DNA of 22,111 bases from a virus. The stretch is taken from positions 1 to 22,111 of the IMG/VR virus record IMGVR_UViG_3300040944_000007; one strand, 5' to 3'. This document shows, piece by piece, positions 7,982 to 21,697 of this stretch (positions within the stretch are counted from its first letter, which is position 1; each line of letters begins with the position of its first letter). Below the pieces are notes generated by a model, which saw nothing but the letters and a program-made list of their open reading frames with translations, was not told where the DNA came from and did no database searches. The position numbers were made by a program, and so were the translations under genes.

Positions 7982-8271
7982 GACTTCGCCCAAGCCTTGC
8001 GGACGTTCTTGAACTGGTGGACGAGCACCCAGACGATGAGGGCCAGAGCGGCGATGATGCCGACCGGCCCGTAGGGCGACACGGCGGCTGCTACGCCCGT
8101 GACGACGAGGACGATAGAGATGGCTCGAATGGTCGCCGCCACGGCGCCAGGCGCTCGTGTGGGCGGCTGTGGAGCAGCCGTAGGGCGAACGCCCTGGGCT
8201 GCGAGCAGTTCGTGCCCTCGGGCGACGAGCTGGGCTCTCCGCTGAGCAGAGGCTGGGTCGATGGCGGTCAT
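7978..8271 (-). CDS. two-helix membrane protein
   Basis: A 97-residue product from ATG 8271 (ATGA overlap with the previous gene). After a soluble N-terminus (MTAIDPASAQRRAQLVARGH) with a proline-rich linker come two hydrophobic segments, at about residues 49-68 (IRAISIVLVVTGVAAAVSPY) and 71-89 (VGIIAALALIVWVLVHQFK), and a basic tail. Such small membrane proteins are common in phage early regions; function is unknown. Confidence 0.65.
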   Translation of the reverse strand: MTAIDPASAQRRAQLVARGHELLAAQGVRPTAAPQPPTRAPGAVAATIRAISIVLVVTGVAAAVSPYGPVGIIAALALIVWVLVHQFKNVRKAWAKS

Positions 8272-8664: not shown

Positions 8665-11142
8665 CTACGATGCGCGGGCGCCGCAGATCGGGCACTCCTC
8701 GCCGGGCTGGCTCTCGCGAGCCAGCGGGGCCTTGCAGGTCTGGCAGATCGGGTCGGAGTCGGTGACTCGCTCAGGGGCCAGCGTCTCGAACTCGGCTTCG
8801 ATCTCGACGTCGTCCTCCGGCGCCGGAGCTGCGTCGCCGAGCACGAAGGCCAGAGCGCCGCAGATCGAGTCGTCCAGGTGGCGGCGCGCTCTCGTGGCCG
8901 CGACGTAGAGGAGCCGAAGCTCGCTCGGCGAGGGCTCCCCGCCATCCTTCGGCGTCGAGAAGTCGCTGCCGAGCCGAACGACGTCCCACTCCCGGCCCTT
9001 GGCCTTGTGGGCGGTCGATACAACGATGTCGGCGTCCTCCTCCTTGGCGGTGGAGTTGACCAGGTCGATGATCGTCTGCGCCCCGTACTCGTCGATGATC
9101 TTGACCATCAGCCGCAGCTCGTCGCCGTTCGGATCGAGGTCGGCGTAGTCGCGAACCTCGGTCCAGGTGGCGAAGCACGCCAGCTCCGGGTGCTCCGTGC
9201 GCCTCGGTGGCGTCGCCTGGAGATCGAGAGCAGCTCGGCAGAAGGAGGCGATGTCGCTCCCGCCGCCCATCAGGTGCACTCGGCGGCCTCGGCCGACCTC
9301 TCGGAGAGCGAAGTCGATGGCTCCGGCGTTCGTGCGGCTGAGGTACGCCTTCGGGTCGTCGTGCGGTCCGACGGCGCTCTCGTAGGGGGCTCTGCCGGTG
9401 AGCCGAAGCTCAGCTCCGGGGATGCGGGCCAGGATGACGTTCGCCACGTCGGCGATCGGCTGGCCGAAGCGGAAGCTGTTGGTCAGGAAGGTGCGGTTCC
9501 CGTCGACGCTGGCGAGGGCGTTGACTGCGCCGCGCCAGTCGTAGATCTGCTGGCAGTTGTGCGTCACGATCCCGTCGGCGACATAGGTGTGGTCATCCTC
9601 AACCCTCATGGAGTAGACGGTGCCAGCAAAGAACGGGGAACGGTAGCTCCCGGCGTTCTCGATACGGCTCCAATGGCGCTCGCCTTCGCCGCCCCTCTTC
9701 GCTGCTTCATCCGGAGTTAGAACGCTCATGCCGTCCATGATGTTGCAGGCTCGGGTCACGAGCGCGCGCCGCAACATCAGGTTCCCGTTCGAAGGGTCCC
9801 ACAGTGGGAACCTGATGTCCCTGCCATCCTCCGCCAGCGCCTTAGCGGCCCGGTTGCTGTTGTCGCCTACCATCTCCCAGAACGTCCGCACGTCCACGAG
9901 ATGCGTGAGCGTCGGCTCGAATGTCCAGGTCGGGATCCCGAACTCGTGTGCTGTAAAGGCTTCCGCGAGTGCAGCCCCATCAGCTGAACTCCACATCGAC
10001 AGAATCCACAGGGCGTCCGCCCCTTCTGCCTGCGCTCGAAGGACAGGACCGAATCCTCGGCCGTAGTGCGCCTGGCAGCGTCCGATGCGGTACTGACTGC
10101 CACGGCGCATCATGTAGACAAGGTGTTGATTATCGAATGCGCCACGCAGGCGCACGATGACTCGATGATCGGGCGTATACCGAGTCACGCGACCAGCCGC
10201 CTTCACGACAACCAGGTCACCCCTGTACGGACGCTCGGAGACGCCTAGAACCTTCTTGCCTCGCAGATGCAGGTAAGAACGGGCTACGTCATATGCGACC
10301 ACTACGTCACCAGCCTGAATCTGTTCGATGGGTCGCTCCTCAATCACCGTGGCCTGTTGGCCCGATCCGGCGGTAATCACTACCTGTACCATCGTCCCGG
10401 CAGGTTGGCAGCTGTCGCCGACGAAGACGACTTGGCACTGCTGCTGGGAGACGATCGAGAGCATCACCGGGTCGGCGTCCTGGGCCTCGTCGAAGAGGAT
10501 GAAGTCGACCGGGATGACCGGGTGGTTCAGCTCCCAGAGCTTGAGGTAGCAGTCGTGCGTGAACGGCAGCGAGCCGTGAGGGTTCGCGAGGTCGTCCCAT
10601 GCTGCGACCAGAGCTGGAGCGAGCGCTCGACGAACCTCTCGGTTGTTCGACCAGCCCCGGCGACCTTCGAGCGGGGCGTCGATGCCGTCGATGTAGGGCA
10701 CGTGGTCGATCGAGATGACCCGGTCGGCCGAGTGCGAGAAGTTGCGGGTCGCCTTGATGACGAGCCCGGCGAGGTAGCCCGGCGAGAGCCGCCGAGCCGC
10801 CCCGTCGACCTGGATCGTGAGCGGGTCGATGCGGAGGCGCCGAGCGATCTCGTCGCCCCGCATGCGGACGGTCGGGAGGCGGTGCTTGTAGCGCACGCCG
10901 GTCGACCGGAAGGCCAGCGAGTGAGCCGTCGAGGCGTTCACGTTCGCTGGCATCTTGGCTTTGGCGTCCTCGACGATCGACTTGTTGAAAGCGACGTACT
11001 GGCCGCGCTTCGAGGTCGACTCGGCGATGGCGATGAGCGTCGAGGTCTTGCCGGTCCCGGCTCCGGCCTCGATCGCGAGAGAGGCGCCGGTCGCGAACAG
11101 GCGAACGGCGTCCCTCTGCTCTGCGGTGAGTTCGTGGCTCAC
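8665..11142 (-). CDS. UvrD/Rep-family superfamily 1 helicase interrupted by an intein
   Basis: An 825-codon gene whose mature helicase is 540 residues. It translocates on and unwinds DNA, presumably in phage replication or recombination. Walker A is AGAGTGKTS (26-34), motif II FDEAQD (217-222), motif III GDS|CQQIYDWRGA (split by the intein after residue 244), motif V VSTAHKAKGREWD (708-720), motif VI LLYVAATRARRHL (744-756). A C-terminal zinc ribbon has C800, C803, C817, C820. GTG 11142 overlaps the stop of the 47-residue gene. The intein spans residues 245-529. Confidence 0.9.
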   Translation of the reverse strand: MSHELTAEQRDAVRLFATGASLAIEAGAGTGKTSTLIAIAESTSKRGQYVAFNKSIVEDAKAKMPANVNASTAHSLAFRSTGVRYKHRLPTVRMRGDEIARRLRIDPLTIQVDGAARRLSPGYLAGLVIKATRNFSHSADRVISIDHVPYIDGIDAPLEGRRGWSNNREVRRALAPALVAAWDDLANPHGSLPFTHDCYLKLWELNHPVIPVDFILFDEAQDADPVMLSIVSQQQCQVVFVGDSCQPAGTMVQVVITAGSGQQATVIEERPIEQIQAGDVVVAYDVARSYLHLRGKKVLGVSERPYRGDLVVVKAAGRVTRYTPDHRVIVRLRGAFDNQHLVYMMRRGSQYRIGRCQAHYGRGFGPVLRAQAEGADALWILSMWSSADGAALAEAFTAHEFGIPTWTFEPTLTHLVDVRTFWEMVGDNSNRAAKALAEDGRDIRFPLWDPSNGNLMLRRALVTRACNIMDGMSVLTPDEAAKRGGEGERHWSRIENAGSYRSPFFAGTVYSMRVEDDHTYVADGIVTHNCQQIYDWRGAVNALASVDGNRTFLTNSFRFGQPIADVANVILARIPGAELRLTGRAPYESAVGPHDDPKAYLSRTNAGAIDFALREVGRGRRVHLMGGGSDIASFCRAALDLQATPPRRTEHPELACFATWTEVRDYADLDPNGDELRLMVKIIDEYGAQTIIDLVNSTAKEEDADIVVSTAHKAKGREWDVVRLGSDFSTPKDGGEPSPSELRLLYVAATRARRHLDDSICGALAFVLGDAAPAPEDDVEIEAEFETLAPERVTDSDPICQTCKAPLARESQPGEECPICGARAS
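9556..10410 (-). other. intein (285 residues) in helicase motif III
   Basis: The insert begins with Cys245 (CQPAGTMVQV, block A) and ends with VADGIVTHN (block G) followed by Cys+1 (CQQIYDWRG). Block B is RYTPDHRV with T323 and H326; block F is YSMRVEDDHTYVA. Removing it restores an uninterrupted GDSCQQIYDWRGA motif. All the expected splicing residues are present, so it is probably active. The middle (LVYMMRRGSQYRIG, a downstream Arg and E394) has an order of residues loosely like GIY-YIG nucleases; no LAGLIDADG motif is visible. The codon use in this part looks less GC-biased than the flanking helicase, consistent with later acquisition. Confidence 0.92.
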
Positions 11143-11282
11143 GAGTGGGCCTCGATCTCGTCGTACTCAGCGTCGGCCTCAGCGACCTGGAGCGCCAGCT
11201 CGTACTCGCCACGGAGGACGAGGAGCTGGACGGCGTTCGGTCGCCGGAGGATCGAGCTGAGTTCCTTCGCTGCGATGGCCAT
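11139..11282 (-). CDS. small acidic protein before the helicase (47 aa)
   Basis: ATG 11282 has a strong ribosome-binding site (CTTGGAAGGAG, seven bases upstream). The 47-residue product begins MAIAAKELSSILRRPNAVQL and continues with an acidic helix (EADAEYDEIEA). The TGA overlaps the helicase GTG (GTGA), so ribosomes finishing it would reinitiate on the helicase message. It may therefore act both as a product and as the translation-coupling leader for the helicase. No family is recognised. Confidence 0.65.
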   Translation of the reverse strand: MAIAAKELSSILRRPNAVQLLVLRGEYELALQVAEADAEYDEIEAHS

Positions 11283-11308
11283 GTGGCTTCTCCTTCCAAG
11301 AGTTGATG

Positions 11309-11351
11309 CGCCAAGGTTAGCAGATGCCGTCGAGAAAGTCTAGACGGCGGG
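11309..11351 (-). repeat. 43-bp direct repeat, copy 1 (hairpin plus extended -10 promoter)
   Basis: Identical over 43 bp to 13646-13688. Read on the minus strand it starts in the last codons of the HTH gene (giving PAV and a TAG stop), forms a hairpin of two 9-base arms with one mismatch and a 3-base loop (11350-11330), and ends with TGCTAACCT (11322-11314), an extended -10 box. TAGACT lies 17 bases before TAACCT and could serve as -35. The predicted transcript has a leader of about 20-25 bases with a strong ribosome-binding site before the 47-residue gene. Confidence 0.8.
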
Positions 11352-11588
11352 GTCCTCCGAGCTGGCCGGAGCTGGCAGCCGCCCCGTCTCTCGCGCCCAG
11401 GTCTCGATGTCGCTCCAGTCCCACGCCGGGCGACCTCCAACGGTCCAGCGCTGCTTCGGGAACGTCGTCCCGATGTAGCGCCACTGGTCGGCGGTCTGAC
11501 GCTTGACGCCCAGGCGCTCGGCGATCTCGACGAGACCGACCGGCTCGGCGTGGTTGAGGCAGCAGCGGCCTTCGAAGCAGCGGGTCAT
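11340..11588 (-). CDS. AlpA/MerR-type helix-turn-helix protein
   Basis: An 82-residue protein from ATG 11588 (ATGA overlap). The segment VGLVEIAERLGVKRQTADQW, then RWTVGGRPAWDWSDIETWAR is the pattern of small excisionase/AlpA-like DNA-binding domains (HTH plus 'W.. I..W'). Such proteins act as recombination directionality factors or transcription regulators. With no integrase in the window a regulatory role is more likely. Two cysteine pairs near the N-terminus (CFEGRCC) are unusual. Its last codons lie in the 43-bp repeat. Confidence 0.75.
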   Translation of the reverse strand: MTRCFEGRCCLNHAEPVGLVEIAERLGVKRQTADQWRYIGTTFPKQRWTVGGRPAWDWSDIETWARETGRLPAPASSEDPAV

Positions 11589-12643
11589 GACTGGTCCTCC
11601 TCAGGGTCGTCCAGGTGCATCAGGAACGAGGCGACGTCGTCCCAGCGGCGGGAAGCCTCGACGAGAACCTCTCGGTCGGACGCCTCGATGCTCACGGCCT
11701 CCTCCCAGAGGTCGGCGTCCCGGCACTCCTCGATCTCGTCGCGGATGAGGTCGACCATCGTCGCCGGTTCGAGGGCGTCCAGCTCCCAGCACTCCTCGCC
11801 GTACTCGGCGAGGTAGCCAGCGGAGCGGCTGTCGGTGAGCTTCGTCGGGTTGGGCGGCGGGTTGTACTCGTCGACCTGGTCCATGTTGAGGGCGATCCGC
11901 TTGATCTGGAGCGCCGGTCGGCCGTCGCAGTCGGCGTCCATCGACTCCCACAGCTCGCGGCGAGAGACCACGAACTCGCCCTCGTCGTTCTCGTGGCCGA
12001 GCCCTCTCGCCTCCATGTTCTCGCTGCGGGCGTTGAAGTAGTCCCGCTCGATGAACAGCTCCAGGCGGTCCCGGATGTCGCGAGTCATGTCGATGCCGCT
12101 CGGATCGTGGTCGCCCAGGTGGAGGATCACGACAGACTGCCCTCCGGCGATGTAGCTGCCGAGCCGCTGAGCAGCTCCCCAGACCTCCGACTGGCTCGTG
12201 TAGCCACGGCAGGAGAAGTAGGGGACGTCCTCAGCGGGGCAGATGGCTTCGAGGACGCCGATCAGGGCGTCCTTCTCGATCCAGACTTCGACTCGGTTGG
12301 GTTGGCTGGCCCACTTGTCGGTACGGAACGAGCGCGCGGCCGAGGCCACCCGAGCACTCAGGTCGTCCCAGTGCTGGAGGTCTCGCAGCTCGCGAGTGCG
12401 GTCGACGATGAAGTCCCAGTCGAGAGCCCCGGCCAGCCGAGCATCGTTGATGATCGAGCCGAGCCGGGAGTACTCGCTTTGGCGGTTCGGGATGAACCCC
12501 CGCGAGACGAACTGGTAGTAGAGCTGGCGAAGCGTCAGATCGAGCCCTTGCGCCTGGTAGGCGCGGCAGATCCGGTTCGCCTGCGTGATGACGTCGAGGG
12601 TCGCTGGAGAGAACTTCTTGGGGGTGTAGCAGATGCGCGTCAC
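11585..12643 (-). CDS. TOPRIM protein resembling Spo11/topoisomerase VI subunit A (Mini-A-like)
   Basis: A 352-residue protein from GTG 12643 (GTGA overlap). Residues 36-50, LTLRQLYYQFVSRGF (Y42, Y43), resemble the winged-helix active site of Spo11/TopoVI-A, where a tyrosine in T-x-R-x-x-Y-Y attacks DNA. A TOPRIM domain follows: E123 in EVWIEKDAL and the D-x-D pair D178/D180 in HLGDHDPSGIDM, which bind metal. WELDALEP (286-293) is a further conserved block. Phage and plasmid 'Mini-A' proteins are stand-alone relatives of TopoVI-A. Their role is unknown; making or processing DNA breaks in recombination or replication is plausible. No B-subunit ATPase is seen in the window. Confidence 0.7.
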   Translation of the reverse strand: MTRICYTPKKFSPATLDVITQANRICRAYQAQGLDLTLRQLYYQFVSRGFIPNRQSEYSRLGSIINDARLAGALDWDFIVDRTRELRDLQHWDDLSARVASAARSFRTDKWASQPNRVEVWIEKDALIGVLEAICPAEDVPYFSCRGYTSQSEVWGAAQRLGSYIAGGQSVVILHLGDHDPSGIDMTRDIRDRLELFIERDYFNARSENMEARGLGHENDEGEFVVSRRELWESMDADCDGRPALQIKRIALNMDQVDEYNPPPNPTKLTDSRSAGYLAEYGEECWELDALEPATMVDLIRDEIEECRDADLWEEAVSIEASDREVLVEASRRWDDVASFLMHLDDPEEDQS

Positions 12644-12897
12644 CGGCCTCCCTCCTTGATCCAGGTGTCAACGACGAAGCCGCCGCACTTCCGCGCTGCG
12701 GCCTCGGCGCTGGCGAGGTTGTCGCTCCGGCGCTCGACCCAGCCGCCCGAGCGGCTCACCGCGAGGTAGCGGCGCATGGAGGTCGTCCGGAGGATGCGGG
12801 CCGGGTCAAGCAGCCCGCCCGGGTAGTTGGGCAGCCGGAAGGTCACGACTCGCGTCGTCACCGTCCGGCGCACTTCGAGGGCTTGGATCGTGGTCAC
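12640..12897 (-). CDS. small protein of unknown function (85 aa)
   Basis: GTG 12897 overlaps the stop of the winged-helix gene (GTGA) and its own stop overlaps the start of the Spo11-like gene, so the three are translated in series. The product is basic with a beta-rich N-terminus (RRTVTTRVVTFRLPNYPGGL) and a helix followed by strands (NLASAEAAARKCGGFVVDTW). No family is recognised. The position makes a partner role for the Spo11-like protein possible, but this is inference. Confidence 0.6.
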   Translation of the reverse strand: MTTIQALEVRRTVTTRVVTFRLPNYPGGLLDPARILRTTSMRRYLAVSRSGGWVERRSDNLASAEAAARKCGGFVVDTWIKEGGR

Positions 12898-13121
12898 TGG
12901 ACGGCCCTCGCTCCCTCAGCCGTGAGGCGGTAGTAGACGCCCTGGCCGGTGCTGTAGCCGTTGCCGTAGACCCGTCGGACCAGGCCGAGCCGGACGAGCG
13001 CCCCCGCCGTCCGGGTGACTCCGTTGACCGGAGCGCCCAGCTCCCGAGCCAGGTGCTTCGGAGAGACCAGCCCTTTCGCCTCAGCGATGACGGCGAGGGC
13101 CCTCTTCATCTGGGCGGTCAT
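12894..13121 (-). CDS. winged-helix (MarR-like) DNA-binding protein
   Basis: A 75-residue product starting at ATG 13121 (TGATG overlap with the upstream stop); GTG codons at 13124 and 13130 are alternative starts. The sequence MTAQMKRALAVIAEAKGLVS, then PKHLARELGAPVNGVTRTAGALVRLGLVRR and YRLTAEGARAVQ has three helices and a wing, as in small MarR/HTH-type transcription regulators. It is coupled to the 85-residue and Spo11-like genes and may regulate this operon. Confidence 0.65.
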   Translation of the reverse strand: MTAQMKRALAVIAEAKGLVSPKHLARELGAPVNGVTRTAGALVRLGLVRRVYGNGYSTGQGVYYRLTAEGARAVQ

Positions 13122-20679: not shown

Positions 20680-20900
20680 GTCGCGTGCGCCTCGTCATAG
20701 GGGCAGCCGCAGAAGCGGCGCGGGTTGGCCTTCTTGAAGGCGGCCTGCTCCCCGATGTAGTCGATGACATCTCCGTGGGGGTCCTGGTGCCCAGGGCCCG
20801 GCTTGCCCTGACGGGTCTCTCTGATGAGCTGCTGCCCTCGCTCGGCTCTCCAGATCCAGATGTCTTCGATCTCGACTTCGACGGGCTTCGTCTCGGTCAT
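20676..20900 (-). CDS. small protein of unknown function (74 aa)
   Basis: ATG 20900 overlaps the initiator stop (ATGA). The product starts MTETKPVEVEIEDIWIWRAE, then RGQQLIRETRQGKPG and HGDVIDYIGEQAAFKKANPR, ending FCGCPYDEAHAT. The final C-x-C is too small for a zinc site alone. It is coupled to the initiator-like gene and the HNH gene. No family is recognised. Confidence 0.6.
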   Translation of the reverse strand: MTETKPVEVEIEDIWIWRAERGQQLIRETRQGKPGPGHQDPHGDVIDYIGEQAAFKKANPRRFCGCPYDEAHAT

Positions 20901-21697
20901 CCTGTCTCCTCTCGTCTCGGGATCAACGCCCGCAGCTCGGCGGGCATCGGAGCCGCTGGCTCGTCGCTCGGCGGCTCGATCGGTCGGTCATAGGGGCGTC
21001 GCTCTCGCTGTGTCTGCATGGCGGTCGCCACCGGGGCGATCACCTGTCGGTTCTTCACGAGCGACTGGGGGGTGACGCTGAGCCCGGGCCAGGTTCGGCG
21101 ATGAGCGTCGCCGAGCGCGCGCACCGCCTCCGGTGTGAGCCCGATGTCATTGAACTCCTTCATGGCTGCGGCGATGCGCCCGGCCTCCGAGCGAGCGAAG
21201 GGTTCGACCATCCCACAGGCGGCTGCGATGGCGTCGAACATGGCATTCCGGGGGCGCCCTGTCTTCGGCGGCTCTGCCGACGGGGAGTTCTCTCTACGTT
21301 CACTAGTGTTGGTTAATACGAGAGAACCGGTCGTTGCGACCTCAGGCTCCGGCTCGTTGCGACCTCTGAGGTCGCAAGGTGCTACCTCTGGCTCCGGCTC
21401 GTTGCGACCTCTGAGGTCGCAAGGTGCTACCTCTGGCATCAGGAACCGGTAGCGCGCCGCCTGCCGCTTCGTGGCCTCGGCGATCAGCTCCAGATACCCG
21501 TCGTCGAGCATCCGACGAACGGCTCGCCGAACGGAGTCCTCGCTCGATCGGCACTTGGCGGCGAGGCGACTCTGCGTCATCCAGAACTCGTAGCCGTGCA
21601 TGTCGTCAACCGAGTCGGCGATCGCCAGATGGACAGCGAACGTGCGGTCGGTGTAGGGCGAGTGATCGAACACCCAGCCGGTCGTCTTGCCACTCAT
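20897..21697 (-). CDS. helix-turn-helix replication initiator-like protein
   Basis: A 266-residue protein from ATG 21697, coupled to a 14-codon leader (ATGA). The N-terminal 75 residues (HLAIADSVDDMHGYEFWMTQ, then SRLAAKCRSSEDSVRRAVRR and MLDDGYLELI) form a winged helix, like phage and plasmid initiators of the lambda O/DnaD kind. Residues 89-118 are a perfect 15-residue tandem repeat starting EVAPCDLRGRN, a probable linker. A helical region at about 150-225 resembles a helicase-loader tail; the end is disordered. It lies directly after SSB. Alternatives are a transcription regulator of similar plan. Confidence 0.65.
   Translation of the reverse strand: MSGKTTGWVFDHSPYTDRTFAVHLAIADSVDDMHGYEFWMTQSRLAAKCRSSEDSVRRAVRRMLDDGYLELIAEATKRQAARYRFLMPEVAPCDLRGRNEPEPEVAPCDLRGRNEPEPEVATTGSLVLTNTSERRENSPSAEPPKTGRPRNAMFDAIAAACGMVEPFARSEAGRIAAAMKEFNDIGLTPEAVRALGDAHRRTWPGLSVTPQSLVKNRQVIAPVATAMQTQRERRPYDRPIEPPSDEPAAPMPAELRALIPRREETG
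21287..21437. other. candidate replication origin: palindromic repeats and AT-richer stretch inside the initiator gene
   Basis: Two perfect 21-bp palindromes (arms TTGCGACCTC and GAGGTCGCAA around a single T) occur at 21357-21377 and 21402-21422, 45 bp apart within a 48-bp near-perfect direct repeat, and a third half-site is at 21334-21343. Beside them is a lower-GC stretch (21295-21319) flanked by an 8-bp inverted repeat, GTTCTCTC (21287-21294) and GAGAGAAC (21320-21327). Repeats plus an easily melted segment inside an initiator gene is the arrangement of lambdoid origins. No origin activity can be shown from sequence. Confidence 0.55.

Follow-up and report, generated by a model that had tools for sequence, protein, structure and literature searches.

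What does a phage do with a gene that places a Spo11/TopoVI-A-like tyrosine motif and a TOPRIM domain within one protein, and is this arrangement new? The question is raised by a gene in the window, i.e., the whole 22,111-nucleotide stretch of viral DNA analyzed here, which a sequence-only reading had described as "combining" the two elements and had placed in a phage double-strand-break or recombination module.

The gene and its surroundings

Bases 27272 to 49382 of a 54,638-base viral contig (the sister contig) match the window at 99.99% identity, and the gene, which we assign below to the Mini-A family, sits on a viral contig with a terminase. The features around it are the following.

8665 to 11142, minus strand: UvrD/phrog_1967-type helicase, split by a probable intein
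11309 to 11351, minus strand: 43-bp repeat, copy 2, containing the stop codon of the HTH gene and the promoter-like sequence identical to that of copy 1; heads the helicase unit
11340 to 11588, minus strand: excisionase/HTH-like DNA-binding protein, 82 aa, overlapping the Mini-A stop by 4 bases (ATGA)
11585 to 12643, minus strand: Mini-A gene, 352 aa, wHTH plus TOPRIM plus C-terminal helices
12640 to 12897, minus strand: 85-aa protein of unknown function, overlapping the Mini-A start by 4 bases (GTGA)
12894 to 13130, minus strand: MarR-like winged-helix protein, 78 aa (PF12802, E = 1.3e-6), in the Mini-A operon
13121 to 13423, minus strand: acidic protein of unknown function, 100 aa, in the Mini-A operon
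13488 to 13643, minus strand: 51-aa open reading frame, the first gene past the 43-bp repeat
13646 to 13688, minus strand: 43-bp repeat, copy 1, containing the speD stop codon and the promoter-like TAGACT-N17-TAACCT; heads the Mini-A unit

The open reading frame at 11585 to 12643 is real and is encoded on the minus strand, not the plus strand, a detail absent from the sequence-only reading. It starts with GTG, preceded by the ribosome site AAGGAGGGAGG, and shows a strong third-position GC bias (0.66/0.43/0.89). The winged helix-turn-helix (wHTH) domain spans approximately residues 1 to 110 (with R39 and Y43) and the TOPRIM domain approximately residues 116 to 290 (with E123, D178, and D180), the latter containing an insert of about 40 residues (approximately 199 to 243) which is missing from compact homologues. 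The motifs are TLRQLYYQF (Y42/Y43), VEVWIEKD (E123), GDHDPSG (D178-H179-D180), and WELDALEP (286 to 293); the residue numbers given earlier for Y42/Y43, E123, and D178-H179-D180 proved exact when checked on the translation.

The gene order also agrees with the earlier description, with the 85-aa gene, the winged-helix gene, and the HTH gene accompanying Mini-A and the repeat following ahead of the UvrD-like helicase, which lies just downstream. The 43-bp repeat is perfect, occurs twice and no more in the 54.6-kb sister contig, and would act as a promoter, although no sigma-70 consensus was found at its promoter-like sequence. Since the 51-aa open reading frame, the 100-aa gene, the MarR-like wHTH gene, the 85-aa gene, Mini-A, and the HTH gene all lie between the two copies, they apparently form one transcription unit.

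Some further features of this DNA may be recorded. A probable intein, about 285 aa long (9556 to 10410), interrupts the UvrD-like helicase at GDS^CQQIYDWRGA. A speD gene (S-adenosylmethionine decarboxylase, PF02675, E = 8e-27) occupies 13677 to 14024, near DNA methyltransferase and ParB-like genes. At 21335 to 21437, within an O-like replication initiator gene (20897 to 21697), there is a 45-bp tandem repeat with the palindromic units TGCGACCTC/GAGGTCGCA, possibly iterons marking a phage origin. The sister contig (L183) encodes a Mu Gam-like DNA-end-protection protein at 11035 to 11655 and, close to it, an SSB, both located upstream of the replication region of the window and of Mini-A, at approximately 9 to 13 kb from the latter.

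Family membership, fold, and catalytic residues

The Mini-A family goes back to Takahashi et al. in 2020 (NAR Genom Bioinform lqz021), as related in PMC7614492, PMC8185306, and PMC11302465, the first two of which describe Mini-A as a short stand-alone Top6A homologue on mobile elements. According to our analysis, the window protein matches PHROG 6247 ("DNA topoisomerase") with an E value of 1.1e-105 and shares 129 of 306 residues (42% identity, E = 2e-80) with the protein of Pseudomonas phage NP1 which is drawn as a Mini-A example in Fig. 4 of PMC7614492. It is also 24% identical to the product of a gene annotated Topo Mini-A in the archaeal plasmids LC711082 and LC711084. It is thus by direct sequence comparison that the protein is assigned to Mini-A, an assignment strengthened by the tyrosine and TOPRIM motifs and by the lack of a B subunit. 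Matches were found in 76 cultured-phage records, all below 60% identity, and in 40 plasmid records; single scans located relatives in 107 viral and 183 genome stretches.

Domain models leave this family largely uncaptured. The window protein had no match among the Pfam, NCBIfam, and PADLOC models, searches of the window record and the sister record with PF21180 and PF04406 gave nothing above threshold, PF21180 was not detected in 201 genomes of one bacterial phylum, and a sequence search of the PDB with the protein or its profile returned nothing relevant. Among the relatives, the best matches to the Pfam families TP6A_N and TOP6A-Spo11_Toprim (0.014 and 0.092) stay under the cut-off; TP6A_N is the most frequent weak Pfam match of Mini-A homologues, and a weak DUF2399 match occurs in 1 of 72. 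On sequence comparison, the window protein is thus a further member of a known and named family which Pfam and NCBIfam do not capture. The word "combining" had implied a novel pairing; instead, the layout is the standard one of Top6A and Spo11, in a family already named.

A Mini-A 52% identical to that of the window was found at 8001 to 8858 of L095, a contig binned as Nanoarchaeota. The genome concerned has no TP6A_N match, whereas 59 of the 60 searched genomes of its phylum have one, so the bin or the genome may be odd or incomplete.

The AlphaFold2 model of the window protein, built from 72 sequences, has a pLDDT of 90.6 and a pTM of 0.82. When it was compared with the PDB by Foldseek, it gave a weak TOPRIM match (2i5r, probability 0.96, E = 0.14), Top6A not being among the matches listed, and against a viral library it gave one significant match, to an unnamed 152-aa protein. 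We also modeled L028, a compact homologue lacking the insert (AlphaFold2, pLDDT 91.3), for which the four best matches among 350,542 PDB chains were all Top6A; the match to 1d3y extends over 325 columns (E = 5.7e-4, probability 1.00). Superposition of these two yielded a TM score of 0.37 and an rmsd of 16.7 A, meaning that the domains are held unlike those of the crystal and that their orientation is not reproduced; the winged helix of Top6A is known to pivot (PMC13040014). The fold expected from the sequence-only reading was therefore recovered, as a full-length Top6A match, for the compact homologue, while for the model of the window protein itself the matches listed include the TOPRIM domain but no Top6A.

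To compare the residues, Mini-A was aligned profile to profile with 21 Top6A sequences; the alignment is collinear across both domains and pairs LTLRQLYY with the Top6A tyrosine motif, DHDPSG with DGDPYG, and PPPNPTKLTD with LPTHPLKEQD. Although hhalign assigns this alignment a low probability (30%), its score of 35.3 is above that of every one of the 350 shuffled controls, which reach at most 30.1 for the 200 column shuffles and 28.9 for the 150 block shuffles. In Methanosarcina mazei Top6A (PDB-alignment numbering), R102-E-L-Y-Y106, E202, and D254-G-D256 comprise the catalytic and clasp residues (PMC13040014), and their equivalents in Mini-A are R39 (R102), Y43 (Y106), E123 (E202), D178 (D254), and D180 (D256). 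A pairing of WELDAL with the Top6A clasp residue E342 is tentative at best, because hhalign does not resolve the C terminus; the position that is always acidic is D/E289, not E287. Together with the fold of the compact homologue, PHROG 6247, and the NP1 match, this alignment bears out the earlier proposal of a Spo11/TopoVI-A-like wHTH tyrosine and a TOPRIM domain within one protein.

In the 72 viral homologues, T37, R39, Y43, E123, D178, H179, D180, N265, D271, R273, E287, and D289 are invariant, while position 42 has Y in 65 of them and F in the remaining 7. When 27 sequences from genome assemblies of bacteria and archaea, as well as 7 from cultured phages, are added, Y43, E123, D178, and D180 are present in 106 of 106 homologues and Y42 in 99 (F in the other 7); the genome assemblies were searched with the patterns EVWIEKD and GDHDPSG, which favors the genome-set counts for E123, D178, and D180, whereas the tyrosine is in neither pattern and the tblastn matches to phages and plasmids are pattern free. 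In 21 more distant plasmid relatives, most of which tblastn aligned to the window protein at 22 to 28% identity, R39, Y43, E123, D178, D180, and D271 are retained in all 21, whereas position 42 varies (Y, M, F, W, or H) and position 289 keeps an acidic residue, D or E. Y43 rather than Y42 is deemed the likely nucleophile from these alignments, the substitutions at Y42 among relatives ruling out the latter; the tyrosine which the sequence-only reading singled out, without choosing between the two, is conserved in homologues at Y43. The E value for PHROG 6247, the 76 phage records, and the invariance in 106 homologues of every named catalytic position save Y42 place the observation beyond chance.

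Gene context and competing explanations

No HATPase_c domain or Top6B transducer was detected in the window, in the sister contig, or in seven complete Mini-A phages, and of 49 viral records with Mini-A only one, a 243-kb contig, was found to carry HATPase_c (GHKL). ATP-driven strand passage encoded by the phage is therefore unlikely.

The immediate neighbors are not shared either. Homologues of the 85-aa, wHTH, HTH, and 100-aa proteins were not found beside other Mini-A genes, the 85-aa protein is confined to near-identical copies of the window phage, and the most frequent Pfam family among 133 immediate Mini-A neighbors occurs three times; individual annotated phage genes, used as seeds, were not strong enough for such a survey. 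The functional tie of Mini-A to the 85-aa and winged-helix proteins suggested earlier is rejected, since these are neighbors only in copies of the same phage and no neighbor family recurs. As to the wider context, NP1 has a ligase, Mini-A, Sak4, a Cas4 exonuclease, and a helicase; Fizzles has SSB, RuvC, a recombinase, Cas4, and Mini-A; and RcSimone-Hastad has Cas4, HIRAN, Mini-A, endonuclease V, and a polymerase. Mini-A thus lies within recombination or replication clusters in three of seven annotated cultured phages, the only three with Cas4-type genes annotated nearby, and in the others its neighbors are hypothetical or nucleotide-metabolism genes; these counts cover Mini-A-carrying phages. 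Two candidate general partners were discarded: a Sak4-type recombinase, since AAA_24 exceeds the cut-off in just 6 of the 50 viral records searched, and Mu Gam, which turned up in only 2 of the 49 records with Mini-A and also had a weak match in L197, a terminase relative. The gene context in some phages makes the proposed double-strand-break or recombination module plausible, and the scarcity of AAA_24 speaks against it.

With a probability of roughly 60%, we regard the window protein as a stand-alone type IIB topoisomerase A-subunit-like enzyme which breaks DNA in a controlled way for phage recombination or replication. The Top6A tyrosine acts in trans across the dimer. By analogy, the window protein would form a homodimer in which Y43, on the winged helix of one subunit, would attack DNA beside the partner's Mg-binding E123/D178/D180 site, and the product would be a double-strand break, made with Mg and without ATP, with each 5' end covalently attached to a tyrosine. 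The phage would most likely feed this controlled breakage into recombination or replication. Against this explanation count the weak TOPRIM match of the window model, with no Top6A among its listed matches, the domain orientation not reproduced in the 1d3y superposition, and the fact that recombination genes are not constant companions. Our literature search found no measured activity or biochemical data for any phage Mini-A.

A different use of the enzyme may be hinted at by the divergent plasmid relatives. Of the 40 plasmid records found by tblastn, 30 are from Streptomyces, and only the archaeal ones are named topoisomerase. Examples (from L200 to L221) are as follows.

NZ_CP029542, 531 to 1394: plasmid relative of Mini-A
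NZ_CP109398, 4456 to 5316: plasmid relative of Mini-A
NZ_CP109378, 116044 to 116901: plasmid relative of Mini-A

Among 21 Streptomyces/Kitasatospora plasmid records, 14 are linear and 7 circular. The relative lies in the outer 20% of all 14 linear plasmids, 0.5 to 25.5 kb from an end (Kolmogorov-Smirnov test versus uniform, P = 2e-5; 5e-5 without one duplicate), and at no preferred position on the circular ones; in two plasmids, a "Helicase associated domain" gene sits at the terminus and the relative follows one to three genes further in. The 13 distinct linear plasmids carry, over the cut-off, full-length Tap in 5 and Tpg in 6, and the main Tap/Tpg copy is always at the end opposite the Mini-A relative. 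A general replacement of Tpg by the relatives is discounted by those six plasmids, and, with about half of the linear plasmids carrying Tpg, Mini-A cannot be the sole end protein. Since the plasmids are mutually related and such regions favor accessory genes, the end bias is a lead rather than proof. We found no description of subtelomeric Mini-A relatives on linear Streptomyces plasmids in the literature searched.

Other explanations compete with controlled breakage. An ATP-independent topoisomerase would nick or cut and then reseal, relaxing or decatenating phage DNA with no lasting break, a reading that we consider unlikely but which stands because resealing needs the same residues and because M. 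marina topoisomerase VIII relaxes DNA without ATP (PMC7614492). All the Top6A catalytic residues are retained, including R39, whose M. mazei equivalent R102 is part of the clasp that restrains cleavage (PMC13040014), and both PHROG and GenBank give the name topoisomerase; however, that name is based on homology, and there is no ATPase or transducer partner for strand passage. There is only a slim chance that the protein is instead a hydrolytic TOPRIM nuclease like JetD/MksG, in which the wHTH just binds DNA and the tyrosine is not a nucleophile. The distant relative MksG does cut despite having no wHTH tyrosine (PMC10123090), and one of the 72 members has the weak DUF2399 match; Y43, unlike the situation in MksG, is invariant down to 22 to 28% identity while Y42 drifts, and it is TP6A_N that dominates the weak Pfam matches.

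An anti-host or counter-defense protein breaking the DNA of the host or of a competitor is similarly improbable. A free-standing cutter among small, nonconserved operon genes is typical of host-interaction regions, but the PADLOC search without a match, which also disposes of a defense-system reading, and the replication and recombination surroundings in NP1, Fizzles, and RcSimone-Hastad argue the other way. The plasmid relatives, lying within the outermost fifth of every one of the 14 linear plasmids and opposite the Tpg end in 6 of 6, would suit an enzyme that cuts, joins, or holds genome ends via 5'-tyrosyl links rather than acting at internal sites; for the window protein this is exceedingly improbable, given seven relatives on circular plasmids, the tendency of subtelomeric regions to collect accessory genes, and nothing comparable known for the phage clade. 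A broader version, very doubtful as well, would make the whole Mini-A superfamily one of DNA-end enzymes, with an unnamed clade subtelomeric on linear Streptomyces plasmids opposite tap-tpg and a phage clade that likewise makes or handles tyrosine-linked ends during replication.

Comparison with known systems

To our knowledge, Spo11-type cutters outside eukaryotes and archaeal topoisomerase VI have hardly been tested. The Mini-A family is common and invisible to Pfam and NCBIfam, and since its members are small and purifiable without a partner, they could reveal what a lone Spo11-like A subunit does. Should Mini-A prove to make breaks, phages would be employing programmed, Spo11-like breakage in recombination; the question could also be put to the subtelomeric plasmid clade, a second setting and one open to genetics.

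The closest known counterparts are the Mini-A proteins of NP1 and its kin, which are alike in motifs, lack a B subunit, and, for NP1, show the 42% identity given above; compared with other Mini-A proteins, that of the window has about 40 additional residues inserted between elements of its TOPRIM domain, and its phage is high in GC with neighboring genes of its own. Top6A (1d3y, 2q2e, and 2zbk) has in common with it the wHTH R-x-x-Y-Y followed by the TOPRIM E and DxD in a collinear profile and is the best fold match of the compact homologue, whereas the window protein falls under all Pfam cut-offs, is without the Top6A N-terminal region, and has no Top6B encoded with it. Topoisomerase VI is an A2B2 enzyme, whose Top6B partner is absent from the seven complete Mini-A phages. 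Spo11 has the same design of wHTH tyrosine and TOPRIM and likewise no ATPase of its own, but it is eukaryotic and needs a B-like subunit and meiotic cofactors, whereas the window protein is from a phage; no direct sequence match of Spo11 to the window protein was obtained, nor a Pfam TOP6A-Spo11 match. Topoisomerase VIII is, like Mini-A, type IIB and found on mobile elements, but it is usually a fused A and B protein with an ATPase domain, which is absent from Mini-A. The Wadjet nuclease JetD/MksG also joins a wHTH-like domain to a TOPRIM nuclease, without the wHTH tyrosine (PMC10123090) that is invariant in Mini-A. Set against these systems, the window protein is real and looks catalytically intact, and it is a new member of Mini-A rather than a new combination.
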